Source: a virus
Reading direction: 5' to 3' (one strand)
Virus record (IMG/VR): IMGVR_UViG_3300028794_000195
Location: 1-21,928 of that record
DNA: 21,928 nucleotides
Made by a program: the position numbers and the translations under genes. How positions within the stretch are numbered: position 1 is the first letter of the stretch; each line of letters starts with the position of its first letter. The notes below the pieces were generated by a model that made no database searches, had not been told where the DNA came from, and saw nothing but the letters and a program-made list of their open reading frames with translations. Below are positions 2,573 through 21,928 of the stretch, piece by piece.

Positions 2573-4719
2573 CGAGCCCACCTTCCGGGGGTTGCGACGT
2601 GCACGGCCGCGCCGGCCGGCAAGGTCTTGCGGATGGCGTTCTTCGACCGGACAGCCCCGGTGATCACCTGCTGGTAGGCGCCCGGGCTGCCGGTCCGCGC
2701 GCCCATGCCACCGGCGGGGACGCCGACGAGCTCGCCGGCGGTGAGCAGGTCGTAGGCGGACGTCGACGACCAGGTCTCGTCGGCGGTGATACCGAGGGTG
2801 AGCGTGGTCGTGGTCGGCCCGGCCGCCGCGCTCATCGTGGACGTGGCCAGGTCGTAGCGGGCGATCCCGTCGTCGTAGGCGCCCACCGCGAACTGCTGGT
2901 CCGGAGCGCACACGAAGGTGATCCGGCGCGAGGTCGGGCCGATGACCTCGGTGTAGCCGAGCACGTGCAGCCGGATCGTGTACTCCCGGAACCCGGCGAT
3001 CGTGATGACGTGGCCGACGTCGACGGCCTCCACCTCGGCGACCTTCGCCGGGCCCAGCGCCGCGAGGTTGACGGTCACCTGCGGGTAGCGGGGCAGGTTC
3101 ACCGTGCCCCTCTTGAGCCACCAGTTCGCCAGGACCGGCAGGCCGGCCTCGTCGGCGACGTTGACGTCGACGCGCTGCTCGTACTCGCCGCGGCCGTCCG
3201 GTGGTGGCTGGGTGCCCATCGGGCTGGTGTCGTCGCGGGCGATGTGCTCGCCGCCGTCGCGCTGGGCGACGGTGACGATGTTGTGGACCGGCAGGTCGTC
3301 GGTGACCTCCCGGGGCAGGCCGGGCAGATCGGTCGGGGAGAGCTCGAGCGCGGGGGTCTGGTTGTAGCGGTCGGCGAGGCACAGCAGGTAGATGGCGGCC
3401 TGGGTGCGCATGTCGAAGATCAGGCCGTCCTCGGTCCGGGCGATCTCCTCCAGGTGCCCGGCGAGGGTCGCGACCGGCTGCGGGCCCATCGGGGTCGAGC
3501 TGGCCCAGCCGTCGCTGACGATGTTGGTGATCCCGGCGGCGGTGAGGAGCCGGTAGAACCGCCAGGCGGTGAGCTCGCCGAGGTAGCCGGTCCAGGCGTA
3601 GATCCGGTCGGTGCTGAACAGGTCGGTGCCGCCGGACGATCCGACGTCGGCGAAGAGGAAGTGCCCGAACGTCGAGCCGGCGGGGACGTCGCCCAGCTCC
3701 GTGCTGGCCGAGACGGCGGCGCTGTCGAGGGTTCCCGGCTGGTGCGCGAACGTGCCGGTGATGAACCTCGACTGCGTGTTGTCGGCGTTGGTCCAGTTGA
3801 CGAAGATCGTCGTGGTGCCGCCGGAGTAGGTGGCGTCGATCGTCCACAGCGACCACTGGGTGAAGTCGTAGGCGTCCGTCGTCTTGGTGACATCCAGCCA
3901 GAACCCCGGGGCCACCGCGCTGTTGGACCCCTGGAGTTGGATCTGCCCGGTGCTGGGGAGCAGGACGATCTGGAACGCGTCGCCGGACCCGCCGCCGCCG
4001 GACGTGTTGATGCTGTACATGAACGTGTCGTCGCTGGTCAGCGGTTCGAGGCGCTGAACCCACGAGTGTTGCCAACCGGTCGTGCTGGTCGCGTTCGGGA
4101 CCACGTTGGTGTAGAGGTTGACGCCGCCGCGCTCGCCCAGGTCCATCAGCGGAGCGCTCGACGACGGGTAGCTCTGGCTGTCGAAGGTGACGCCACCGGA
4201 GAACGCGAACCCTTCCGGCCCGACGAAGGTCGGCACCGGCACTGTGGTGGTCCGGGCCTGCTCCGCCGGGAAGTACGCGGTGACGTGGGCCAGGCCCTCG
4301 TTGTAGGCGCGGAACGCGCTCTTGAGGGGCTTGGTCCACTGGCCGATGCGCTGCAGCAGCCCGCCGCCCTCGAACTCCGTCCAGGCCCGGCCGCGCTTCG
4401 GGTAGCGGCGGAAGTCCTGGCTCTGGTCGCACGCCAGCGACGACGCCTCGACCACGCCGCGCACGGTGCCGCCCACGGACACCCGGCCGGGAGTGTTCAC
4501 GCCGGCCTTGCCGTACAGCGGGCTCTCCGGGTTGGACGTGCGGTACCGGTCGTCGTCGTTGGCCAGCTCCGCGGTGATCTGCGCCGGCCGCGGCGCCGGG
4601 GACTCGTCGCCCTGCCCGCGCCGGATCACGATCGGGGCGGTGAACACGTCGTCGTCGGCGGTGATGTCGCGCCAGGCGCCGTCGTAGAACAGCTCGAACG
4701 CGACGTCCTGCTTAGGCAT
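2569..4719 (-). CDS. Minor tail protein with LamG-like domain
   Basis: This 716-residue protein is probably a tail-tip structural protein of the mature virion. The N-terminal region (residues 5-85) carries the pattern typical of actinophage minor tail proteins: FYDGAWRDIT, then IRRGQGDES, then a segment on ordered strands ending ESPLYG. Residues about 200-390 resemble a concanavalin/LamG beta-sandwich ending in GYLGELTAWRFYR. Residues 395-716 match the C-terminal part of tail proteins that form the ring or hub at the tip. The ATG at 4719 overlaps the tape-measure stop by eight bases. An upstream in-frame ATG at 4800 would add 27 residues with signal-peptide-like character. I rejected it because that stretch lies wholly inside the tape-measure gene. 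Confidence 0.88.
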   Translation of the reverse strand: MPKQDVAFELFYDGAWRDITADDDVFTAPIVIRRGQGDESPAPRPAQITAELANDDDRYRTSNPESPLYGKAGVNTPGRVSVGGTVRGVVEASSLACDQSQDFRRYPKRGRAWTEFEGGGLLQRIGQWTKPLKSAFRAYNEGLAHVTAYFPAEQARTTTVPVPTFVGPEGFAFSGGVTFDSQSYPSSSAPLMDLGERGGVNLYTNVVPNATSTTGWQHSWVQRLEPLTSDDTFMYSINTSGGGGSGDAFQIVLLPSTGQIQLQGSNSAVAPGFWLDVTKTTDAYDFTQWSLWTIDATYSGGTTTIFVNWTNADNTQSRFITGTFAHQPGTLDSAAVSASTELGDVPAGSTFGHFLFADVGSSGGTDLFSTDRIYAWTGYLGELTAWRFYRLLTAAGITNIVSDGWASSTPMGPQPVATLAGHLEEIARTEDGLIFDMRTQAAIYLLCLADRYNQTPALELSPTDLPGLPREVTDDLPVHNIVTVAQRDGGEHIARDDTSPMGTQPPPDGRGEYEQRVDVNVADEAGLPVLANWWLKRGTVNLPRYPQVTVNLAALGPAKVAEVEAVDVGHVITIAGFREYTIRLHVLGYTEVIGPTSRRITFVCAPDQQFAVGAYDDGIARYDLATSTMSAAAGPTTTTLTLGITADETWSSTSAYDLLTAGELVGVPAGGMGARTGSPGAYQQVITGAVRSKNAIRKTLPAGAAVHVATPGRWAR

Positions 4720-6097
4720 TGCGGCCGCCAAGGACAAGCTGAGCGTTACCGCCACGGCGGCGAATCGCCCGCGCCAGGATCTCGACCAGCAGGTCATCAA
4801 GCTGCGAACCTCCGGACTGGATCACGATCGGTCCGCCGCCACCGCCGCCGGGCCAGCTCACCTGCTCACCGGCCATGGCCATGATCGGGACCTCGGTGCC
4901 CGGGGCGCCGGGCACGATGCCGCCGGTGTGGAACTTCGGCAGGTACGGCACGGACCAGCTGTTGCCGCCGATGAACGGGATCCAGCCGGGCACGCTGAAC
5001 GACATCCCGCCGACGGTGTTGTTCCACGCGTCGGAGATCAGGTTGAACGCCGCCCGGAACGGGGCACTGATGAACCGGGCCACCTTGCCGAACGCGTCAC
5101 CGAGCCAGCCCGGGATCTTCTTCAAGAAGTCCCAGGTGTTGCTCGCCGCGGACTTGATCCAGCCCCACGACGCCCTCCACGCCCGCTGGAACCAGTCGGT
5201 CTTCGTCGCGATGACCACGATGATCGCGATCAGGGCGGCGATCGCGAGGATGATCCAGGTGGTGGGGCTGGCCAGCTGGGCGATGTTCCAGAGCCACTGT
5301 GCGGCGGTGACCAGGCCGACCACACCGACCACCGCGCTGAGCAGCGGGGTGACCATGCTGATGTTGTCCGCCCACTTCTGCAGGCCGGTGGGGTTGGCCT
5401 CGGACATGGCGGCGTTGAGGTTGAGCTGTGCGTCCTTGCCGTCGCGGACCGCCTGGGTCGCGTCGACGGTCGCCTGAGTGCCGTCGATCGACGCCTGCCG
5501 GGCGTCCGCCGTCGCCTGCTCTTCGTCCAGCCGGGCCTGGTTCAGGTCGGACGTCGCCTGGGTGAGATCGATCTGGGCCTGCCGGGCCTCGTCGGACCCC
5601 ACGCCGTATTCCTTGACGGCCGCGTTGTAGTCCTTCTGGGCCGTCGTCGCGTCCAGCTTCGCCTGACGGGCGTCGATCTCCGCCTGCTCCACGTCGATCG
5701 CGGCCTGCTTGCCGTCCAGCTGCGACTGGTTGAGATCCTCCTGCGCCTGCCGCAGATCCACGGCGGCCTGCTTGCCGTCCAGCATCGCCTGCTCGACGTC
5801 GGCGTTCGCCCGGGCCAGCTTCATCGCGCGCTCGCGGCCGGCCGACTGGATATCGGCCAGGCCCTGCACGGCCGCCCCGGCGGAGTCGATGGCGTCGGTC
5901 ATGCCGGTCACGCCGGCGCCGATGTTGCCGATCTTCTCGCCGTAGTCGACGCCCTGCTTGCCGGCCTTATCGAAGTCGGCGCCGGCACTCTTCGCCGCCT
6001 TGCCGACGTCCTCGGTCGCGGCGGTCGCCGCCTTCGCCGCCTTCTGCAGCTTGGTGGCGTCCCCGGCGAACTCCAGGGTCATGCTGTTGCCGGCCAT
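4712..6097 (-). CDS. Tape measure protein (short)
   Basis: The protein has 461 residues, much shorter than most siphovirus tape measures. Residues 100-227 are built from about 17 near-perfect heptads of the form D-x-x-Q-A-x-x, broken once by a YGVGSDEA segment, and should form a long helix. Residues 248-270 and 279-298 are hydrophobic and membrane-like, as is usual in tape measures. The C-terminal part is rich in Trp, Gly and Pro. The ATG at 6097 shares one base with the stop of the preceding small gene. At about 1.5 angstrom per residue, the general rule for these proteins, the tail would be near 70 nm. Position after the chaperones and before the tail-tip gene supports the call. Confidence 0.9.
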   Translation of the reverse strand: MAGNSMTLEFAGDATKLQKAAKAATAATEDVGKAAKSAGADFDKAGKQGVDYGEKIGNIGAGVTGMTDAIDSAGAAVQGLADIQSAGRERAMKLARANADVEQAMLDGKQAAVDLRQAQEDLNQSQLDGKQAAIDVEQAEIDARQAKLDATTAQKDYNAAVKEYGVGSDEARQAQIDLTQATSDLNQARLDEEQATADARQASIDGTQATVDATQAVRDGKDAQLNLNAAMSEANPTGLQKWADNISMVTPLLSAVVGVVGLVTAAQWLWNIAQLASPTTWIILAIAALIAIIVVIATKTDWFQRAWRASWGWIKSAASNTWDFLKKIPGWLGDAFGKVARFISAPFRAAFNLISDAWNNTVGGMSFSVPGWIPFIGGNSWSVPYLPKFHTGGIVPGAPGTEVPIMAMAGEQVSWPGGGGGGPIVIQSGGSQLDDLLVEILARAIRRRGGNAQLVLGGRNA

Positions 6098-6273
6098 CAG
6101 CGGACCCGTTCCCGAAGCCCCGGCCACAGGATGGCGCGAGCGAGCGGCGCCCAGTCGCACGGCCTGGTCGAGACGGTCACCGCCCAGGCGACAACCGGCG
6201 GTAGGTCGGGGTGGATGGCGATCGGCACCCCGACTGACCCTGCTGCGACCTTCCGGCCCGCCTTGCCTGCCAT
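6097..6273 (-). CDS. Small protein between tail-completion gene and tape measure
   Basis: This 58-residue frame begins with ATG at 6273 and is joined to both neighbours by one-base stop/start overlaps (TGATG), the coupling used throughout this operon. The protein is basic, with a hydrophobic middle (HPDLPPVVAWAVTVS) and a conserved-looking Cys-Asp-Trp. The hydrophobic stretch is too short and proline-broken for a confident membrane helix. I do not recognise a family. Its place in the tail module suggests a role in tail assembly, but nothing in the sequence proves that. Confidence 0.6.
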   Translation of the reverse strand: MAGKAGRKVAAGSVGVPIAIHPDLPPVVAWAVTVSTRPCDWAPLARAILWPGLRERVR

Positions 6274-8527: not shown

Positions 8528-9130
8528 TCAGCCCACCTTCCGCGGCCGGCACAGGCCACGCAGCGACACGGCCACGTCCGGGTCGAGCCGGGCCAGCAGC
8601 CGCAGCTCTGAACCCTGCATCGGCGAGCCGGCGACGCCGTACGGCGACTCGCGGCGGGCCGCGAACCGGGAGCCCTGCAGCTTCGCGGCCTGCTTGACCG
8701 CCGGAGGAAACGCCGTCCACCCCCACGGGGCGGTGATGCCCGCCTGGTCCTGAGTGCCGTCCGGCTGCGCCTCGGCGTCGGTGGCGAACACCAGCCGCGT
8801 CCACGGCTTGCCCTCGGCCGCCGCGTTGCGCGGCTCCAGGGTGAACTTCCCGGTGGTGACCGTGACGGCGCCGACCAGCACGACCAGGCCGCTGACCGAC
8901 ATCAGGTCGTCGATGTCGACCACCCACCGGCAACGGCGGGCGCTCCACCGGGGTGTGTAGAACCGCTGCTCCGGGGCGTCGACCTTGCCGAACTGCCGGT
9001 TGCAGTGCTCGTCGATCACCCGGGACGCGGCCGTGCACCAGGCCGCCAGCTCGACATCGTCCAGCTGGTCGCCGACGCGCAGGAACGCGTCCAGCTCCCG
9101 GGTGGTGATGTAGTCCGGCGCCCAAGACAT
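8528..9130 (-). CDS. Head-tail connector (adaptor) protein
   Basis: This 200-residue protein starts with ATG at 9130, six bases after AAGGGGA. The N-terminal part (residues 1-45) is the helical start of phage head-tail adaptor proteins: DYITTRELDAFLRVGDQLDDVELAAW, shown here only as its pattern of a short strand followed by two helices, then a conserved IDEHCNRQFG. The middle is beta-rich and the end returns to a helix. In HK97-type phages the adaptor binds the portal ring. Gene order (capsid, small genes, adaptor, terminator) agrees. Confidence 0.8.
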   Translation of the reverse strand: MSWAPDYITTRELDAFLRVGDQLDDVELAAWCTAASRVIDEHCNRQFGKVDAPEQRFYTPRWSARRCRWVVDIDDLMSVSGLVVLVGAVTVTTGKFTLEPRNAAAEGKPWTRLVFATDAEAQPDGTQDQAGITAPWGWTAFPPAVKQAAKLQGSRFAARRESPYGVAGSPMQGSELRLLARLDPDVAVSLRGLCRPRKVG

Positions 9131-9465: not shown

Positions 9466-9684
9466 TCACTCCTCGCGCTCGAGAACCCAGCCGCGGCCGT
9501 CACCGCGGTCGACGTGCCCACCGGCCCGGCGCGCCGGACCGTCCTGCTGTTCCGGCGCCATCGGCAGGCCGCCGCGTCCCGGGTGGTCGGGCGGGCCGGT
9601 CCACACGGTGTCGGTCGCGGCCGGCTGCCGCGCGGCGGCGGGCCTCCCGGGCGGGGAGGTCCGCTTGGCCGGACGGCTGGTCAT
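9466..9684 (-). CDS. Small Pro/Arg-rich protein after the capsid gene
   Basis: This 72-residue frame begins with ATG at 9684, sharing one base with the capsid stop codon. It ends in Arg-Glu-Glu just before the start of the decoration-like gene. The first 50 residues are rich in Pro, Arg, Ala and Gly and look disordered. The C-terminal 20 residues (about GHVDRGDGRGWVLEREE) are charged. It has no recognised family. Overlaps at both ends and reading in the operon direction support real translation. Confidence 0.55.
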   Translation of the reverse strand: MTSRPAKRTSPPGRPAAARQPAATDTVWTGPPDHPGRGGLPMAPEQQDGPARRAGGHVDRGDGRGWVLEREE

Positions 9685-10979
9685 CAGGTGATCCGGATGC
9701 CGGACACACCGACCGGGCGGAGCAGGTGCGTAGCGAAGTAGCCGAACACGTTGAGCTCGATGTTCGCCGGGCCCTGCTTCTCCTCGAACCGGAAGGTCAG
9801 CAGCGGCGACTCCCACACCCACAGGTCGGCCCGGTTGAGGGTGAAGATCTGCGTGTCGCCGGCGGCGACGCCGGTGATCGCCCAGGCGGGGATGTGCGGC
9901 AGGCCGTCGACGTACCAGCCCTGGGTGAGGGCGTTGCCGACCCCGGAGGTGTTCTGCGCGCCCACGGACGGGAAGATCGGCCGGCCCGTGGTGTCGGTCG
10001 AGGTAGCCAGGATCACCGTCCCGTTCTGGCCCATCAGCGCCATCGTCGGCGACGCGAACCGGTTGAACGGGTACTTCGCCAGCCGGTTCCGGATGCCGCC
10101 GATCAGCGCCGGCGGGGTGCCCGTGGAACCGACGAACGTGGCGGCCTGCGCGCCGGACGGCACGAAGTCACCGGTGATGGTGCCACCGGAACCGTTCGCG
10201 CCGTTGAGCAGCGTGTACACCTTGGTCTCGGTCTGCCGGGCGTAGGACTCGTTCATCGCGGCGACGGCGATGGCGTCGATGGCCGGGTTGGACGAGTCGA
10301 CGATCTCGCGGGTCAGGACCAGACGGCCCGACACTGCGCCGGGGGTGACCGTCTTGGTGGTGAACGTCAGGGCGCCGTCGGACGGGTTGGTGCCCTCGAC
10401 GTGGTCGGCGGTCGCACCGGTCGCGGTGGAGAACACCGGGACCACGAACGGGGTGGCGTTGCCGATGGTGCCCTGCGACGCGGCCGAGACCAGCGGGCGG
10501 CCCTGCTGCAGCTGCGGCACGTACAGGTCCGGCCGGTAGCCGGGCGGGACGATCTGCGACGCCGTCGCCGTCGACTGCGGGGTGAACTGCGCCGACAGCC
10601 GCTGGTTGGTGAGCTTGGCGACGTCCTCGGTCTGCTGGCGGTACTTGCGCAGCCGGTCGATGGCGTCGTCGTCGCGCTCGCGGGTGGCGTACCAGGCGTC
10701 GCGGACCAGGGAGTGCCCGAGGCCGTTGAACCGGTAGATGGGGTCCTCGCGGGTGACCGTGTAGCGGGCCGCCCGGACCGGCTGCGGGCCCTCGTTCTGC
10801 GGGTCGTGGATGCCTTCGAGGGCTGCCTTGATGCCGGCGGAGAACGACTCGCCGAGCGTCTCGGCCAGGCCCTCGGACAGCTTCTGGTGCGAGTCGGTGA
10901 TCTTGTCGGCCAGGCCGGACATGTAGCCGTCGAAATCGAACGCGGCGTCCGGCTGACCCTTACCGGCCGTAGCCGTCAT
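9684..10979 (-). CDS. Major capsid protein, HK97 fold (internal start)
   Basis: Starting at the internal ATG at 10979 gives a 431-residue protein. AGAGAGG lies about seven bases upstream, a normal ribosome binding site. The first 100 or so residues are helical and coiled-coil-like (KITDSHQKLSEGLAETLGES region), matching the scaffold-like delta domain that the protease removes. The rest has HK97 features: VPPGYRPDLY, a VPVFSTATG strand, REIVDSSNPAID on the spine helix, and a C-terminal strand with VFGYFATHLL. This is the likely form incorporated into the head. It is nested in frame inside the 9684-12761 frame. Confidence 0.7.
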   Translation of the reverse strand: MTATAGKGQPDAAFDFDGYMSGLADKITDSHQKLSEGLAETLGESFSAGIKAALEGIHDPQNEGPQPVRAARYTVTREDPIYRFNGLGHSLVRDAWYATRERDDDAIDRLRKYRQQTEDVAKLTNQRLSAQFTPQSTATASQIVPPGYRPDLYVPQLQQGRPLVSAASQGTIGNATPFVVPVFSTATGATADHVEGTNPSDGALTFTTKTVTPGAVSGRLVLTREIVDSSNPAIDAIAVAAMNESYARQTETKVYTLLNGANGSGGTITGDFVPSGAQAATFVGSTGTPPALIGGIRNRLAKYPFNRFASPTMALMGQNGTVILATSTDTTGRPIFPSVGAQNTSGVGNALTQGWYVDGLPHIPAWAITGVAAGDTQIFTLNRADLWVWESPLLTFRFEEKQGPANIELNVFGYFATHLLRPVGVSGIRIT

Positions 10980-12761
10980 GGGGGTGCCTCTCTGGTTGTC
11001 TCGGCTGGCCTTCACAGAGGCCACCCGCGCGTCATCGAATGCGGGGACGCCGGTCAGGGCAACGCCGCGGAGAGTGGCCTGGCGCACCAAGCGGACCGTC
11101 TCATCGGTCGGGTCGGGCTCCCAGGAATCGAAGGACTCGAAATCGACCTCGACGCTGAAGCCGTCGAGGATCTTGTCTTCTGCCTTCTGCAGCGCTCGAT
11201 CACCCTCAGGACTGCGGTCGACCTTGAAAGTCGCCATGAGCCCGCGCGAGGCGGACTGAAGGCGAGTGGCGTAGGCGACCAGGACAGTGCTGTCGTGGTG
11301 AAGGTTGAGCTTGATGCGTGAAGGCTCGGACCAGCTCACCGAGTCCTTGACGAACCGCCACTTGGCGATCCCGTTGTTCGCCACCTTCCCCCAGGGGAGC
11401 ACCGGCCCGGTGATGGTCCGGCGCTCCACGTCCACCTGGAAGTCCTGGGGATCGGGTGCCTCGAACTGGACGCGCACCGCGTCTCCCGCGTCGAAGTGCT
11501 GTGTCACGGGTGTCTCCCTGCGCTCGTTCTGCGCCCCGGCCGGCTCGGCCGTCGCGGGTACGGCCGGCGGCTTCGGCACGCGGGCGGCACGCTGGGTGGC
11601 GGTCAGCGGCGGCCGGTCCTCGAGGTCGCGGATCTCCTCGTCGACGTACGCGCCGACGCGCAAACCGACCTCGTAGGTCTGCATCCGGGTCAGCGCGTCG
11701 CCGCGCAGGAAGCCGGCGAAGTCGATCCGGGACACGTAGTTCATCGGCAGCACGTCACGCATCGACAGCCGCTCCTGGACCGTCGTGGCGTACGCGCCGA
11801 GCGTGAGGTTGATCCGGTCCTGGTTGCGCTGCTCCCGGTTCGCGTACGTCCGCGACGTGGTCGACACGCCCAGGTCCTCGGCCTCGACCCCCGCCGCCCG
11901 GGCGATCTCCAGCACCGCGTGCTGGCGCTGGTCAGCCAGCTGCAGCTGCTCCGGGTTCCACGACAGGGTGTTCGCCTTCAACGCCGCCGGGATGTACGCC
12001 CACGCGTTCCTGGCCCGCTGCGCGTTCCACTCGTCGAGCAGCTCGGCCACGTCGTCGTCATCGGCCGGGTCCGCACCGTCTGCCGGGCTGAAGTAGCCCA
12101 GCGGCTGCGGATCCCGCGCGTACAGCGCGGCGGCCTGGTCGAGCGCCAGGCACGTCCGGATCGCCCGCGCGGCGTGCCGCAGCAGCGGCGGGTTCGGCGA
12201 GTCGAACCGGATCACCTCGTCGTCGCGCACCGGGTGGCCGTCGATGAACACCTGGCCGTCGACCGGGAACGGCTGATCCGGGCTGATCTGCTGCAGCGAC
12301 GGCATCGACGCCCCCACCGGGGCGACGTTCACCGACTCGATCGGCACGTGCCGGGCCTCGGTCGGGTAGCCGTGCCACCCGCGTGCCGTGACCCGCAGCC
12401 AGGACACGGACTCGAACAGCAGGTCCTCGAAGATCTGCGCCTTGACCACCACGTTGGCGATGTTCGGGTCGATGTTCCCGCTCGGCAGATACGTCACGCC
12501 GGCGACCTCGCGGCGGTCCGGGCCGAACACCCGCAGCGGCAGCGTGGCCAGCGACGAGCAGATCAGGTTCCGGGCCCGCATCACCGCGGGCACCTGCAGC
12601 GCCTCCTCGCGGGACACCCGCGGTGCGATCGCGGCGCCGCCGGTCATCGCCTGCAGCATCTCCGGCGGCAACGACACCGTGAACTGGGCGCGCGGGCGCG
12701 GCGCTCTCAACGCCTGAGCGGCACCTGGCCGACCCAAGCGGAGCACACGCCTCCAGTTCAT
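9684..12761 (-). CDS. Portal + prohead protease + major capsid in one reading frame
   Basis: One uninterrupted frame of 1025 codons contains three HK97-type head proteins in order. Residues 1-418 are the portal (VSREEALQVPAVMRARNLICSS near residue 55 is the family pattern; it ends in a Pro/Ala linker). Residues 419-594 are a prohead protease of the S78/U35 type, with LNLHHD (protease His70/His71) and DGFSVE (Ser118) as likely catalytic sites. Residues 595-1025 are the capsid, with a helical delta-like domain and then the HK97 core. In most phages these are three genes. Here no stop codon separates them, yet each later part has a start codon and ribosome binding site (GTG 11507, ATG 10979). 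Either a polyprotein, separate proteins, or both could be made. The ribosome binding site before 12761 is weak. Confidence 0.93.
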   Translation of the reverse strand: MNWRRVLRLGRPGAAQALRAPRPRAQFTVSLPPEMLQAMTGGAAIAPRVSREEALQVPAVMRARNLICSSLATLPLRVFGPDRREVAGVTYLPSGNIDPNIANVVVKAQIFEDLLFESVSWLRVTARGWHGYPTEARHVPIESVNVAPVGASMPSLQQISPDQPFPVDGQVFIDGHPVRDDEVIRFDSPNPPLLRHAARAIRTCLALDQAAALYARDPQPLGYFSPADGADPADDDDVAELLDEWNAQRARNAWAYIPAALKANTLSWNPEQLQLADQRQHAVLEIARAAGVEAEDLGVSTTSRTYANREQRNQDRINLTLGAYATTVQERLSMRDVLPMNYVSRIDFAGFLRGDALTRMQTYEVGLRVGAYVDEEIRDLEDRPPLTATQRAARVPKPPAVPATAEPAGAQNERRETPVTQHFDAGDAVRVQFEAPDPQDFQVDVERRTITGPVLPWGKVANNGIAKWRFVKDSVSWSEPSRIKLNLHHDSTVLVAYATRLQSASRGLMATFKVDRSPEGDRALQKAEDKILDGFSVEVDFESFDSWEPDPTDETVRLVRQATLRGVALTGVPAFDDARVASVKASRDNQRGTPMTATAGKGQPDAAFDFDGYMSGLADKITDSHQKLSEGLAETLGESFSAGIKAALEGIHDPQNEGPQPVRAARYTVTREDPIYRFNGLGHSLVRDAWYATRERDDDAIDRLRKYRQQTEDVAKLTNQRLSAQFTPQSTATASQIVPPGYRPDLYVPQLQQGRPLVSAASQGTIGNATPFVVPVFSTATGATADHVEGTNPSDGALTFTTKTVTPGAVSGRLVLTREIVDSSNPAIDAIAVAAMNESYARQTETKVYTLLNGANGSGGTITGDFVPSGAQAATFVGSTGTPPALIGGIRNRLAKYPFNRFASPTMALMGQNGTVILATSTDTTGRPIFPSVGAQNTSGVGNALTQGWYVDGLPHIPAWAITGVAAGDTQIFTLNRADLWVWESPLLTFRFEEKQGPANIELNVFGYFATHLLRPVGVSGIRIT
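10980..11507 (-). other. Prohead protease segment with own GTG start
   Basis: These 176 codons, from GTG at 11507 to the codon before the capsid ATG, encode the protease unit. AGGGAGA lies about five bases before the GTG. Likely catalytic residues are His70 or His71 (KLNLHHDS) and Ser118 (ILDGFSVEV), the usual His/Ser arrangement of phage prohead proteases. There is no stop before the capsid, so initiation at GTG would give a protease-capsid fusion of 607 residues unless the product is cleaved. Confidence 0.75.
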
Positions 12762-12818: not shown

Positions 12819-14405
12819 CTACGATTCTTCGGCCCGACGTCGGGCACCGATGATCCGGGGCTTGCCGATCGGGGCGGGCAGAGTCCGGGCCAGGTGCACC
12901 GCGCCGGCCACCGCGTACACCGCGTCGACGTTCCCGCCACCGCGCCGGGTGAACACCTTCGCATCGCCGCGCCGCAGCCACTCCGCGCCGGCCACCTGGT
13001 CGTCGAGCATCCCCTGGCCGGAGTGCGCGAGCGTGAGGGCGTCGACCTCCTTGCCCAGACCCATGGCCGCCGCCGCGACCTCGCCGCGGATCTCCGCCAC
13101 GGTGACGCCGGGCGGCGGCCACCCGCGCACACCGTCCTTACGCCGGTCCTTCACCCGGCCGGCGACCGCCTCGGCCGGGCCGCCACCGAACCAGCCGACC
13201 GTCTGCGGCCCGATCTTCTCCACCCAGCCGGGCAGTGCGCGCTCCAGGTCGGATGCCGCCGCCGGCCCGATCCACTCCGCGACGGTCTCGACCCGGACCC
13301 GGCCGTCCTCGAGGACGGCGGCCGCCGCAAGCGTGGCGTGCAGGCCGTCCGGCGACAGGTCGAGGCACAGCGCCAGCCGCGACCGCGCGGCGGCCAGCTC
13401 CCCGACCTCGAGGCAGTCGCGCCACCGCTGCGGGTCGATCGCCGGGTTGGAGTGCCGGACCCGGACACACATCCGGTTGGTCTTGAAGGCCGCCAGCGCC
13501 TTGCCGCCGAGCCGCTTCGCCTCGGCCGCCTTCGCCCGCAGCACCTCGAGGTCCAGTCCGTACCCGACGCGGGGGTTCGCCTGCAGCAGCGCCTCGACGT
13601 CCTCCGGGTCGGCGTCCTCGGGGGCGGAGTACTCGATCAGGCCCAGGCGCTCGTCACCGACGCCGGTCTCGATGAACTCCAGCGCCGACTTGCGCAGGTC
13701 ATTCAAGACGACCGACCGGTCGTCGCCCGCGTTCGACAGTGCCCAGATCTGCGCGTCCATCGGCGAGCACGCCGGCTCGAACGCCTCCCAGGCGTCGTAA
13801 CTGTGGTGCTGGCGCAGCTCGTCGCAGATGCCCCGATCGATCGTCAGCGACCGGCCGCCCTCCTCGTTCGCCGCCGCGATCAGATACCGGCAGTCATCGA
13901 CCGTCCAGCTCTCGGTCTCGCCGTTCGTCCGGCGCAACCACTTGCGGCCCGGCTCGTGCAGGTCGTCCAGCGCCGGAGTCCGCTGCACCAGCTTCACAGC
14001 CTTCTGCCAGCTCTCCTTCGCGTACTTGAGCTGCGTGGACGTGCCCAGGATCAGAGGGACCTTCTTCCGGAACTGCCAGTAGATGCTCAGCACCACCGGC
14101 AGCTCCGTCTTGCCGTTCTGCCTGGACACGCAGAGCAGCACGATCCGGAACCTGGGCCGGCAGCGGCAGGGGTCAGCGTGCACGCCGAGCGCCGGGGCGC
14201 ACCCGGGACCGTCCAGCATCTCGCCGCCGTGGATCACCGCGAACTCCTGCCACGGCAGGAGCGGGTGTTGCAGCACGTCCCGGGCGAAGTCGATCACCTC
14301 GAACCCGTACGACGTGGCCGGCGTCAGCTCGCGCAGCGGTGGCGTCCACAGCCGCGGGGTCGTGCTGCCCAGCAACGGCGGGGCCAGGTCGACGACGGTC
14401 ATCAT
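12819..14405 (-). CDS. Terminase large subunit
   Basis: This ATPase-nuclease packages DNA into the prohead. From ATG 14405 it has 528 residues. The Walker A variant SRQNGKT is at residues 94-100 and the Walker B acidic pair (ICDE) is about residues 192-195. The nuclease half contains LCLDLSPD and a late VDAVYAVAGAVHLA, giving the metal-binding Asp residues of an RNase H-like fold. The N-terminus (LWTPPLRELTPATSYGFEVIDFA) matches actinophage TerL starts. Starts at 14402 (overlapping a TGA by one base) or GTG 14480 are alternatives; none has a good ribosome binding site. No small terminase gene is recognised beside it. Confidence 0.95.
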   Translation of the reverse strand: MMTVVDLAPPLLGSTTPRLWTPPLRELTPATSYGFEVIDFARDVLQHPLLPWQEFAVIHGGEMLDGPGCAPALGVHADPCRCRPRFRIVLLCVSRQNGKTELPVVLSIYWQFRKKVPLILGTSTQLKYAKESWQKAVKLVQRTPALDDLHEPGRKWLRRTNGETESWTVDDCRYLIAAANEEGGRSLTIDRGICDELRQHHSYDAWEAFEPACSPMDAQIWALSNAGDDRSVVLNDLRKSALEFIETGVGDERLGLIEYSAPEDADPEDVEALLQANPRVGYGLDLEVLRAKAAEAKRLGGKALAAFKTNRMCVRVRHSNPAIDPQRWRDCLEVGELAAARSRLALCLDLSPDGLHATLAAAAVLEDGRVRVETVAEWIGPAAASDLERALPGWVEKIGPQTVGWFGGGPAEAVAGRVKDRRKDGVRGWPPPGVTVAEIRGEVAAAAMGLGKEVDALTLAHSGQGMLDDQVAGAEWLRRGDAKVFTRRGGGNVDAVYAVAGAVHLARTLPAPIGKPRIIGARRRAEES

Positions 14406-14641
14406 CGGTCGGCCCGGTCGGCGGAACGAACTACGGCCCCACAGGGAGCTACCCGAGGGACCGTAGGTTCGGCCGGCCACCAGCGGGAGCTACCCGCCGC
14501 GCACCGGCCACAGGCGCAGCCTACCCGGTCCGAACCGGGGCATCGGGGAGAGGGAAAGGACAGGTCAGCGGGTGTCCGGGGGGTGCCCTGCCGGGAAAAT
14601 CGGACTGCGTTTGCGCTGGTCAGGCGCATCTCTCTCACCAT
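14402..14641 (-). CDS. Doubtful small reading frame between HNH and terminase
   Basis: This frame of 79 residues starts at ATG 14641 inside the end of the HNH gene and stops at 14402 with the same TGATG overlap used elsewhere in the operon. Its third-codon-position GC content is clearly lower than in the neighbours, and the protein is rich in Cys, Arg and Pro with no fold pattern. It is where a small terminase gene often lies, but it does not look like one. The stretch may instead be a non-coding packaging region. Confidence 0.25.
   Translation of the reverse strand: MVREMRLTSANAVRFSRQGTPRTPADLSFPSPRCPGSDRVGCACGRCAAGSSRWWPAEPTVPRVAPCGAVVRSADRADR
14431..14496. repeat. Repeats upstream of terminase: GGGAGCTACCCG pair and CTACGG/CCGTAG
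   Basis: GGGAGCTACCCG occurs twice as a direct repeat (14444-14455 and 14485-14496). Each copy is nearly palindromic. The first copy sits between an inverted repeat, CTACGG (14431-14436) and CCGTAG (14461-14466). The location, between the HNH endonuclease and the large terminase, is where packaging (cos-like) sites are found in many HNH-carrying phages. A packaging or regulatory role is inference. Confidence 0.5.
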
Positions 14642-19438: not shown

Positions 19439-19516
19439 TTACTTCCACGCAATCTGGATCGATTCCGGATCGAAGTAGGACTCTCCCGACTTCCAGCCCC
19501 CGGCCGCCGACCCGTC
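19439..19516 (-). other. Out-of-frame integrase C-terminal extension
   Basis: Twenty-five codons in the +1 frame after the integrase stop encode DGSAAGGWKSGESY followed by FDPESIQIAWK, then TAA. The FDP-x-x-x-x-x-x-W-K/R ending is typical of large serine integrases of actinomycetes. The two frames meet at CCC-TGA-C: skipping the T leads directly into this extension. The split may be a programmed shift, a real mutation or a sequencing error. Confidence 0.6.
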
Positions 19517-20969
19517 AGGGTGTCGACGATGGCGCGGCATCGGCCCAGATCTCGCCCCACGTCCGCTCGTCCCCGGCCCAGCGCGACGGCGCCAGCCGCA
19601 GCTCGTTGAACCGAGGCCCGTCGTACCGGGTGCCGGGCAGGAGCCGGACGTCGGCCAGCAGGCGCGTGATGTCCCGGCGCCGCCTCGCCGAGTACCCGCC
19701 CCACCTCGCGGCGATCTCCTCGCCCGTCTTCCCTGCCAGGTCGCCCAGCTCGGCCGGCAGCGCAAGCCGGTGGACCTTCCGCGCGGCCGTGTCGATGTCG
19801 ACCAGCAGGAGCCGCTCCACGGCCGCGAGCCCACCGGCGGTCAGGTCGCCCCGCGCCGCCTCGGCGTAGTGCGCGTCCAGCCGGTCCCGGAGCACCTTCT
19901 CCGCGGCGAGGGCGGCGCGCAGCTCCCCGTCGGTGCTGCCCTTCGCGATCAGCGCGTTGATGTCGGACTTCCTGAGCCGTCCCAGGATGACCGGTTCCAG
20001 CACGCCCTCCAGGCCGCGCGCCGACGCCGAGACTTTGAAGCATTCGCGGCACTGGTACGCGTCGCCGGTCTTGCGCGGGGCGGCCCGCAGGTTGCCGCCG
20101 CAGGGCGCGCACCGGACCGCCCCGGTGCACCAGTGCTTCACGTTCGACGACCCGGTGGCAGGGTGCGACGTCAGCCGGGCGTACGCCCGCTCCCAGACCT
20201 CGCGCGGCACTAGCGGCTCCCACGTGCCATCGCCCACGATCTTGCCCTGGTGCACGCGCAGCCCGGCGTAGACCGGCTTGATGGCGAGCTGGCGGATCTG
20301 GCGGTCCGTCCACTGTCCGCCCTCGGCCGTGGGGATGCCCCGCTTGTTGAGGTCACGCGCGATGGCGCCGAGGTCGTCCTTGTCGTCGCCGGCGGCGATG
20401 CGGGTGATGATCTCTGCGGCGATGGGCCCGGTCTCGGGGTCGGGTATCTGGCTCTCGACCCGGCCGCGGCGGTCGTAGGTCCGGATCCAGCCGTACCCGC
20501 GGCGACCGACCGGGCGGCCGGCGGCGGCGGCATCGCGCTTGCCGCGTACGGTGCGCTCGCTGATCTTCTCCGACTCGTCCGCCGACTCCACCGCGTCGTC
20601 GGCCAGGGCACGCCAGTCGCGGCGGTTGCGGACGTCGTAGGTGCGCTTGTGGCTGATGACCCGGATCAGCACGCCCTCGACGCGGCAGAGTTTGAACAGC
20701 TCCGCCCACTCGCCGAGGTCGCGGGAGCCGCGCGAGTTCTCCCAGAGCGACAGCATCTCGCAGTCGCCGGCCGCGATGTGCGCGAGCAGGGCGGCGTAGT
20801 CCGGGCGGTCACGGGTGGCGTACCGGGATGCGGACCGGTCGGGGTCGGCGAACTTCCGGCCGAGCTCGAAGCCCTGCTCCGCGCAGTCGGCGTGCCAGTC
20901 CTTTTCCTGCGACGCTACCGACCGGCCTTCGTCAGCGTCCGACTTGCGTCCGTAAAGATCTGATCGCAT
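19515..20969 (-). CDS. Large serine integrase
   Basis: As read, the protein has 484 residues. It catalyses phage integration through a covalent serine-DNA link. The catalytic N-terminal domain shows YGRKSD with Ser10, SVASQ at 17-21, DRPDY at 54-58 and the WENSRGSRD stretch at 76-84. A recombinase domain follows (GRRGYGWIRTY, then a DLNKRGIPT element at 207-214 and LAIKPVYAGLRVH). A zinc ribbon has C287-x-x-C290 and C307-x-x-C310. A coiled coil spans about 345-400. The end (EIWADAAPSSTP) is abrupt. A +1 shift at CCC-TGA would add 25 residues ending FDPESIQIAWK at 19439, which looks like the normal end of this family. The gene lies next to the attachment junction. The ATG at 20969 has no ribosome binding site. 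Confidence 0.96.
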   Translation of the reverse strand: MRSDLYGRKSDADEGRSVASQEKDWHADCAEQGFELGRKFADPDRSASRYATRDRPDYAALLAHIAAGDCEMLSLWENSRGSRDLGEWAELFKLCRVEGVLIRVISHKRTYDVRNRRDWRALADDAVESADESEKISERTVRGKRDAAAAGRPVGRRGYGWIRTYDRRGRVESQIPDPETGPIAAEIITRIAAGDDKDDLGAIARDLNKRGIPTAEGGQWTDRQIRQLAIKPVYAGLRVHQGKIVGDGTWEPLVPREVWERAYARLTSHPATGSSNVKHWCTGAVRCAPCGGNLRAAPRKTGDAYQCRECFKVSASARGLEGVLEPVILGRLRKSDINALIAKGSTDGELRAALAAEKVLRDRLDAHYAEAARGDLTAGGLAAVERLLLVDIDTAARKVHRLALPAELGDLAGKTGEEIAARWGGYSARRRRDITRLLADVRLLPGTRYDGPRFNELRLAPSRWAGDERTWGEIWADAAPSSTP

Positions 20970-21010
20970 GCTTGCAATGCTACTGCGCGAGGACTACTTT
21001 TCAAGAAGTC
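20970..21010. other. Prophage attachment half-site (att junction, right end)
   Basis: Permease coding sequence runs up to minus-strand GACTTCTT (21010-21003), encoding Asp-Phe and the start of the next codon. The family normally continues Phe-Asp-Thr. After this the sequence is unrelated and leads within 34 bases to the integrase start. The crossover probably lies within ACTTCTT. Exact limits need the other end of the prophage, which is outside the window. Confidence 0.8.
20977..21004 (-). promoter_or_regulatory. Candidate integrase promoter across the attachment junction
   Basis: On the minus strand TTGAAA (21004-20999) and TAGCAT (20982-20977) are separated by 16 bases. The -35 matches TTGACA at five of six positions; the -10 fits the TAnnnT pattern common in actinomycetes. 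Seven bases separate the -10 from the integrase ATG, so transcription would begin at or near the A of the start codon, giving a leaderless mRNA. The first two bases of the -35 fall in the sequence shared with the host gene. Confidence 0.5.
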
Positions 21011-21928
21011 GGTGATCAGCAGGGTGAAGATGAACATCAGCACGACCAGCCAGCCGGCCCGGCCCCACGAGTCGAGCACGTTGAACTTGCCCAGCAGCGA
21101 CAGGTCGGGCAGATCCACGATCTTGTCCGGCAGCGCGGGCACGTTCAGCGACCAGCCGCTCGGGTTCGGCTTGCCGTCGACGAACGACGGGCCGACCTTG
21201 GCGATCGCCTCCACGATGACCGCCAGCACCGTGCTGACCAGGATGCCGATCAGGATCGCGCCCTTGACCTTGCGGACGAAGAGCACCAGCGTGATCAACA
21301 GGCCGACGCAGAAGACGAACACCGGCCAGGTCGTCAGCTTGCCGCCCAGGCCCAGCTCGACCGGCACGGTCGTGCCCGCGGCGTCCGGGATGCGGCGCAC
21401 GAAGCCCGCGTCGACCAGCCCGATGATCATCAGGAACAGGCCGATGCCGACGCCGATCGCCGTCTTCAGCTGGGTGGGCACGGCCCGGAAGACCGCGGTA
21501 CGCAGCCCGGTCAGCACCAGGATGCCGATGATCACACCCTCGATGAAGACCAGGCCCATCGCGTCGGCCCAGGTCATCTCGGGCGCGATCTCGTACGCCA
21601 CGAGGGCGTTGACGCCGAGCCCGGCCGCCAGCGCCAGGGGGAACCGCGCCACGACGCCCATCAGGATGGTCATCACGCCCGCCACCAGCGCCGTACCGGC
21701 CGCCAGCGCCGCCACCGGCAGCTTGCCGCCGACCGCGTCCACGCCCGCCGCCAGGATCAGCGGGTTGAGCACCACGATGTAGGCCATCGTGAAGAAGGTG
21801 GCGAAACCACCGCGAACCTCCCGGCCGACGGACGAGCCGCGGGCCGAGATCTCGAAAAATCTGTCAAAGGCGTTCTTCGGGGTACGCCCGGACGAACCAG
21901 CATCCGTCTCGGCAGCAGCAGTGGACAT

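Follow-up and report, generated by a model that had tools for sequence, protein, structure and literature searches.

It has long been asked how a phage head obtains exactly one portal and a suitable amount of protease. In the window analysed here, which comprises all 21,928 bases of an IMG/VR record, portal, prohead protease and major capsid protein are encoded in one reading frame that ends at a single stop. From the sequence alone, the original prediction had described this frame as stopless over 1025 codons, with GTG 11507 and ATG 10979 as retained internal starts, and had proposed that it makes a polyprotein or sets the dosage of protease to capsid. The observation is confirmed below and its interpretation partly supported. 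Comparison with relatives makes it fairly likely, in our view, that the locus is a nested three-in-one head gene, from which a scarce portal-protease-delta-capsid polyprotein and abundant free capsid protein would both be made, the resulting seed being cut by the S78 protease.

Table 1. Features of the fused head gene and its immediate neighbours in the window.
Feature	Position	Strand	Evidence or remark
Fused gene, portal-protease-scaffold/delta-major capsid	9684..12761	-	1025 codons, single open frame; Pfam and PHROG domains
Stop codon TGA of the fused gene	9684-9686	-	
Portal domain, HK97 type (residues 58-382)	11616..12590	-	PF04860, E 8e-28; 3kdr by sequence and fold
Shine-Dalgarno match AGGGAG before GTG 11507	11514..11519	-	Duplex -8.1 kcal/mol; 6 nt spacer
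GTG, putative internal start of a protease-capsid product	11505..11507	-	Shine-Dalgarno start retained in most fused members of the window's clade
Portal-protease linker (residues 398-439)	11445..11570	-	pLDDT < 50; length changes in frame
Prohead protease domain, family S78	11001..11444	-	PF04586 above cut-off; catalytic His and Ser conserved
Shine-Dalgarno match AGAGAGG before ATG 10979	10987..10993	-	Duplex -8.0 kcal/mol; 7 nt spacer
ATG, predicted internal start of the major capsid protein (431 aa product)	10977..10979	-	Conserved position; codon bias upstream
Variable N-terminal region of the capsid protein	10770..10979	-	Between protease and capsid core; modelled helix 610-635
Major capsid core, HK97 fold	9687..10769	-	phrog_2263; Foldseek
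Terminase large subunit, directly upstream of the fused gene	12819..14480	-	phrog_9, E 6e-54
Head-tail adaptor, downstream of the fused gene	8528..9130	-	phrog_442, E 2e-11

The three parts of the frame are recognizable by both sequence and fold (Table 1). The portal domain scores 97.9 bits against PF04860 (cut-off 39.1), which identifies it as an HK97-type portal in Pfam, and its Foldseek matches are the HK97-family portals 3kdr and 8fql; the narrower portal model TIGR01537 gives 57 bits and does not reach its cut-off of 112. The protease follows the same pattern, with 24.3 bits for Peptidase_S78 at residues 482-587 (cut-off 21) and 43.5 bits for the narrower model TIGR01543 (cut-off 59, not reached). 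Its catalytic residues, which the original prediction had seen in the window, are conserved among the fused relatives (His in 86/87, Ser in 87/87). For the capsid part, PHROG 2263 (major head protein) spans residues 440-1024 (E 2e-47), the Pfam HK97 capsid families match residues 748-988 slightly below their cut-offs, and Foldseek retrieves the capsids of HK97 (2fs3), D3 (9ous) and GTAs, placing this part within the HK97 fold. An AlphaFold2 model built from 35 sequences (window and IMG/VR; mean pLDDT 69, pTM 0.37) has the parts folded separately, with low confidence at residues 398-439 and 581-610, two stretches which contain one internal start each, and with a helix at 610-635 preceding the capsid core. 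The model suggests that the portal-protease linker, Ala/Pro-rich in composition across the family, is probably disordered, and the position and helix of the variable N-terminal region of the capsid protein make this region probably scaffold- or delta-like.

Around the fused gene, a tail terminator is also encoded downstream (PHROG), and the tape measure protein (4712-6160) is very short (~480 aa), which suggests a very short tail. At 19515-21928, the gene for a large serine recombinase with Resolvase and Recombinase domains adjoins a frame for a xanthine/uracil permease, which runs to the end of the record and matches its Pfam model over the first half only; the prophage may be inserted in this permease gene.

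The original prediction had proposed looking for the absence of stops in relatives, and this absence is widespread: among 113 non-redundant loci from Micromonosporaceae genomes and IMG/VR contigs in which all three domains are present, 87 carry the three-part frame without a stop, a ratio biased towards fusion because the relatives were sought with fused proteins as queries. The others have the portal apart from a protease-capsid gene (23 loci), a split before the capsid (2) or three genes (1). The same three-part frame occurs at 58-83% identity in three IMG/VR contigs and in Actinoplanes subtropicus NRRL B-24665 (of whose prophage locus L003 appears to be the IMG/VR record), and all four have internal starts at both boundaries despite different linker lengths. 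Among 355 genomes scanned around A. subtropicus, at least 15 further fused loci came to light, some at ~30% identity, together with several loci with a separate portal; IMG/VR scans yielded 42 relatives with a divergent member as query, all of which were fetched, and 421 with an alignment as query, of which the best 80 were fetched.

On a FastTree tree of the 113 loci, the fused or split label changes about six times, and a 16-member split clade nested within fused clades reads as a fission at the portal-protease junction. Linker lengths have changed at least 71 times between portal and protease and at least 74 times between protease and capsid (at least 40 and 45 when linkers are counted only as far as the internal starts), always in frame. 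Judged from these sequences, the three-part frame is a genuine variant of the protease-capsid fusion, widespread and apparently unreported, and it predominates across a large clade of small phages and prophages of actinobacteria. The rarity that the original prediction attributed to a fusion including the portal thus holds for phages at large and fails within the window's own group. Two loci depart from the common arrangements: in the split relative L172 (1405-4794), the protease-capsid frame is open for 1129 codons and overlaps most of the portal gene in a different frame, and L072 (1828-4778) has a portal-protease frame with a truncated protease and a frame shift, followed by a capsid gene with its own start, which makes it either a decayed or error-bearing copy or a case of natural protease loss.

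Every one of the 87 fused frames has a start preceded by a Shine-Dalgarno match at the capsid boundary (74 ATG, 13 GTG), mostly 10-16 codons past the protease domain; the group thus shares the conserved in-frame internal start and ribosome-binding site of a nested gene of the lambda C/Nu3 kind. When the first ATG after the protease is taken regardless of its score, the duplex energy is ≤ -7.5 in 75/77 cases, vs. 20/2374 control windows. In a fixed stretch of eight codons before that ATG, a choice which avoids the circularity of selecting good Shine-Dalgarno sites, GGA makes up 60% of the Gly codons, vs. 3.8% in the domains (Fisher p 3e-56), and GC at third codon positions drops from 0.91 in the domains to 0.64 before the capsid start. 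Since the residues there vary, this codon bias is, on comparative grounds, a sign of selection on the RNA upstream of the capsid start. Relatives of the two-part type also retain a strong internal capsid start. Within the window alone, neither internal site is exceptional (GTG 11507 and ATG 10979 rank 5th and 6th by duplex energy among 62 in-frame start codons), and each would be weak evidence; the comparison gives them their significance, and it was solely by comparison with relatives that chance Shine-Dalgarno sites could be ruled out.

At the portal-protease junction, a start with an energy ≤ -7.5 is found in 35 of the 43 fused members of the window's clade and in 13 of 44 in the sister clade, the chance rate of such starts in comparable windows being ~6% at ≤ -8. 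The internal starts proposed in the original prediction are thus retained throughout the fused group at the capsid boundary, and at the junction in most fused members of the window's clade and a minority of those of the sister clade. The most serious rival to the nested gene is genome compaction, in which portal, protease-capsid and capsid would each be made from their own starts, and a read-through product would be tolerated, cut or degraded. The small genomes and the existence of split relatives at about 60-67% identity speak for it, as do the junction starts of the window's clade and the rare codons AGG and GGA enriched before them, which were counted at best-scoring sites and are hence weaker evidence than that for the capsid start. 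Much of the protease in the window's clade may indeed come from the junction start. Compaction fits less well with the conservation of the fused state across so many changes in linker length, with the lack of any stop before the capsid end for a ribosome that begins at the portal, and with the sister clade, where 31 of the 44 fused members have no Shine-Dalgarno start at the junction, so that much of this clade probably has no source of protease other than a portal fusion. We therefore regard compaction as rather unlikely; on the nested-gene reading, the window's clade may have kept or regained a third, protease-capsid product.

The internal Shine-Dalgarno-like sites could instead be translational pauses that aid the folding of separate domains, as their location in linkers between modelled domains would allow. 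This we consider very improbable, since a properly spaced start codon follows in 87/87 frames and split-off capsid genes begin at that point with a strong Shine-Dalgarno match (L072 and L166, the loci split at the capsid boundary). A zinc-knuckle-like CxxC-H-C motif (e.g., MHCATCGQVHAEGVAC) also lies directly past the internal capsid start in 25 of 110 loci (L004, L010, L015, L018, L073 and 20 more), a placement that fits the N terminus of a protein; the motif perhaps acts in the scaffold/delta part. A loss of stops through sequencing or assembly error or prophage decay, conceivable for a single virus record, is refuted by the same arrangement in 86 other non-redundant loci, including whole bacterial genomes such as that of A. 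subtropicus, and a programmed frameshift ending the upstream protein on the TGA within ATGA or GTGA, as the NTGA at both window boundaries might suggest, has next to no credibility on the alignment, where the TGA is variable and many relatives have ATGCCC, ATGCAC or ATGGAC.

How, then, might the nested gene work? The best candidate start of the portal is weak (median -4.85 kcal, ≤ -8 in 8/80), which, together with the strong capsid start, predicts a scarce polyprotein and abundant capsid protein, with Shine-Dalgarno strength as a proxy for initiation. Because leaderless and weakly led starts also occur in actinobacteria, the portal start may exceed its apparent strength. From the weak portal start, ribosomes would continue as far as the only stop and produce a polyprotein in small amounts, the accumulation of which we infer, and initiation at the internal ATG would deliver free delta-capsid protein in large excess; in the window's clade, GTG 11507 could begin the third product. 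By icosahedral geometry, a T = 4-like head takes ~235 capsid subunits to 12 portal subunits, for which an equimolar polyprotein would be insufficient, and the nested start can explain how the stoichiometry is kept. For a genome of ~18 kb, the predicted head is T = 4-like (PMC7762592). The dosage idea of the original prediction thus gains support from the contrast between a weak portal start and a universal, strong capsid start.

In the polyprotein, each portal subunit would be joined to one protease and one capsid domain, and free capsid protein could assemble on this seed. The S78 protease would then cut the seed apart and remove the delta regions, as its conserved His and Ser and the known S78 maturation suggest. 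That the uncut polyprotein is itself the assembly seed, with twelve portal subunits carrying protease and first capsid domains covalently, is a more tentative proposal, which we put forward as possible rather than probable. The tolerated fission at the portal-protease junction is, on the tree, a sign that the covalent portal link is useful, not indispensable, and by-eye inspection of the junctions for common cleavage motifs found none that was convincing.

Among known systems, the nested C/Nu3 gene of lambda resembles the predicted arrangement in its products: an in-frame internal start yields an abundant short product which shares the C terminus of the scarce protease fusion. In lambda, however, the short product is the scaffold, the capsid protein has a separate gene and the portal is unfused. 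The lambda portal B, protease C and scaffold Nu3 form an initiator complex (PMC3224144), which the portal fusion would make covalent.

The nearest isolates are siphoviruses of 14-17.5 kb, and all ten that were examined have a separate portal, with its stop, and a protease-capsid fusion, whereas the window and 86 other loci have no stop between portal and protease. A strong internal ATG precedes the capsid part in seven of the ten and a weaker one in Jeanie; none was found in Emperor or RRH1. More broadly, the fusion of protease, scaffold and capsid is described as common among siphoviruses whose genomes are unusually small (PMC7302621), and further protease-capsid fusions have been described (PMC5513430, PMC8306868). 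The phages of Microbacterium (cluster EE), Arthrobacter (AN/AX/FE) and Gordonia (CW/DM) and Rhodococcus RRH1 resemble the window in encoding protease, delta/scaffold and HK97 capsid as one gene (PMC7302621, PMC5513430), and in their small genomes, gene order and mostly strong internal capsid ATG; they differ in that the portal is a gene of its own with a stop, usually with a 4-nt overlap with the fusion or with lysis genes in between. The latter is the case in Gordonia phages Emperor, Rahul and Jeanie and Rhodococcus phage RRH1 (L089, L090, L093 and L095), so that these four have an insertion site where the window's group has its fused junction.

Other fusions share only some of these parts. 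The capsid polyprotein of Pseudomonas phage PAJU2 (P85500, cited in PMC8306868), likened here by description and not by sequence, is a protease-capsid protein proposed to cut itself, and no portal part has been reported for it. NCBIfam NF045541 (prohead protease/major capsid protein fusion) covers two of the window's three parts in a model without portal, and the window scores 18.5 bits against its cut-off of 525. In actinophage portal-MuF fusions, the portal is also joined to a head gene, but the partner is MuF rather than protease and capsid (PMC7302621, PMC5513430). None of the family models and isolates examined includes a portal in a protease-capsid fusion, and no report of a portal-protease-capsid fusion was found in full-text literature, subscription journals being mostly outside its reach. 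Likewise, when four fused proteins were searched by tblastn, no site in 50,697 phage records covered 80% of the query, and a plasmid search gave partial matches only.

The arrangement belongs to very small phages of soil actinobacteria and is absent from the isolated phages examined, and in this large group automatic annotation misses the separate capsid protein. If the uncut polyprotein does act as the seed, a single gene would fix the number of portals per head at one and that of proteases at twelve, and the capsid count would depend on the strength of the internal start alone. With portal, protease and capsid naturally linked in one chain and a nested start supplying bulk capsid protein, the locus would offer a minimal system in which the supply of portal and protease to the head could be tested by single mutations.
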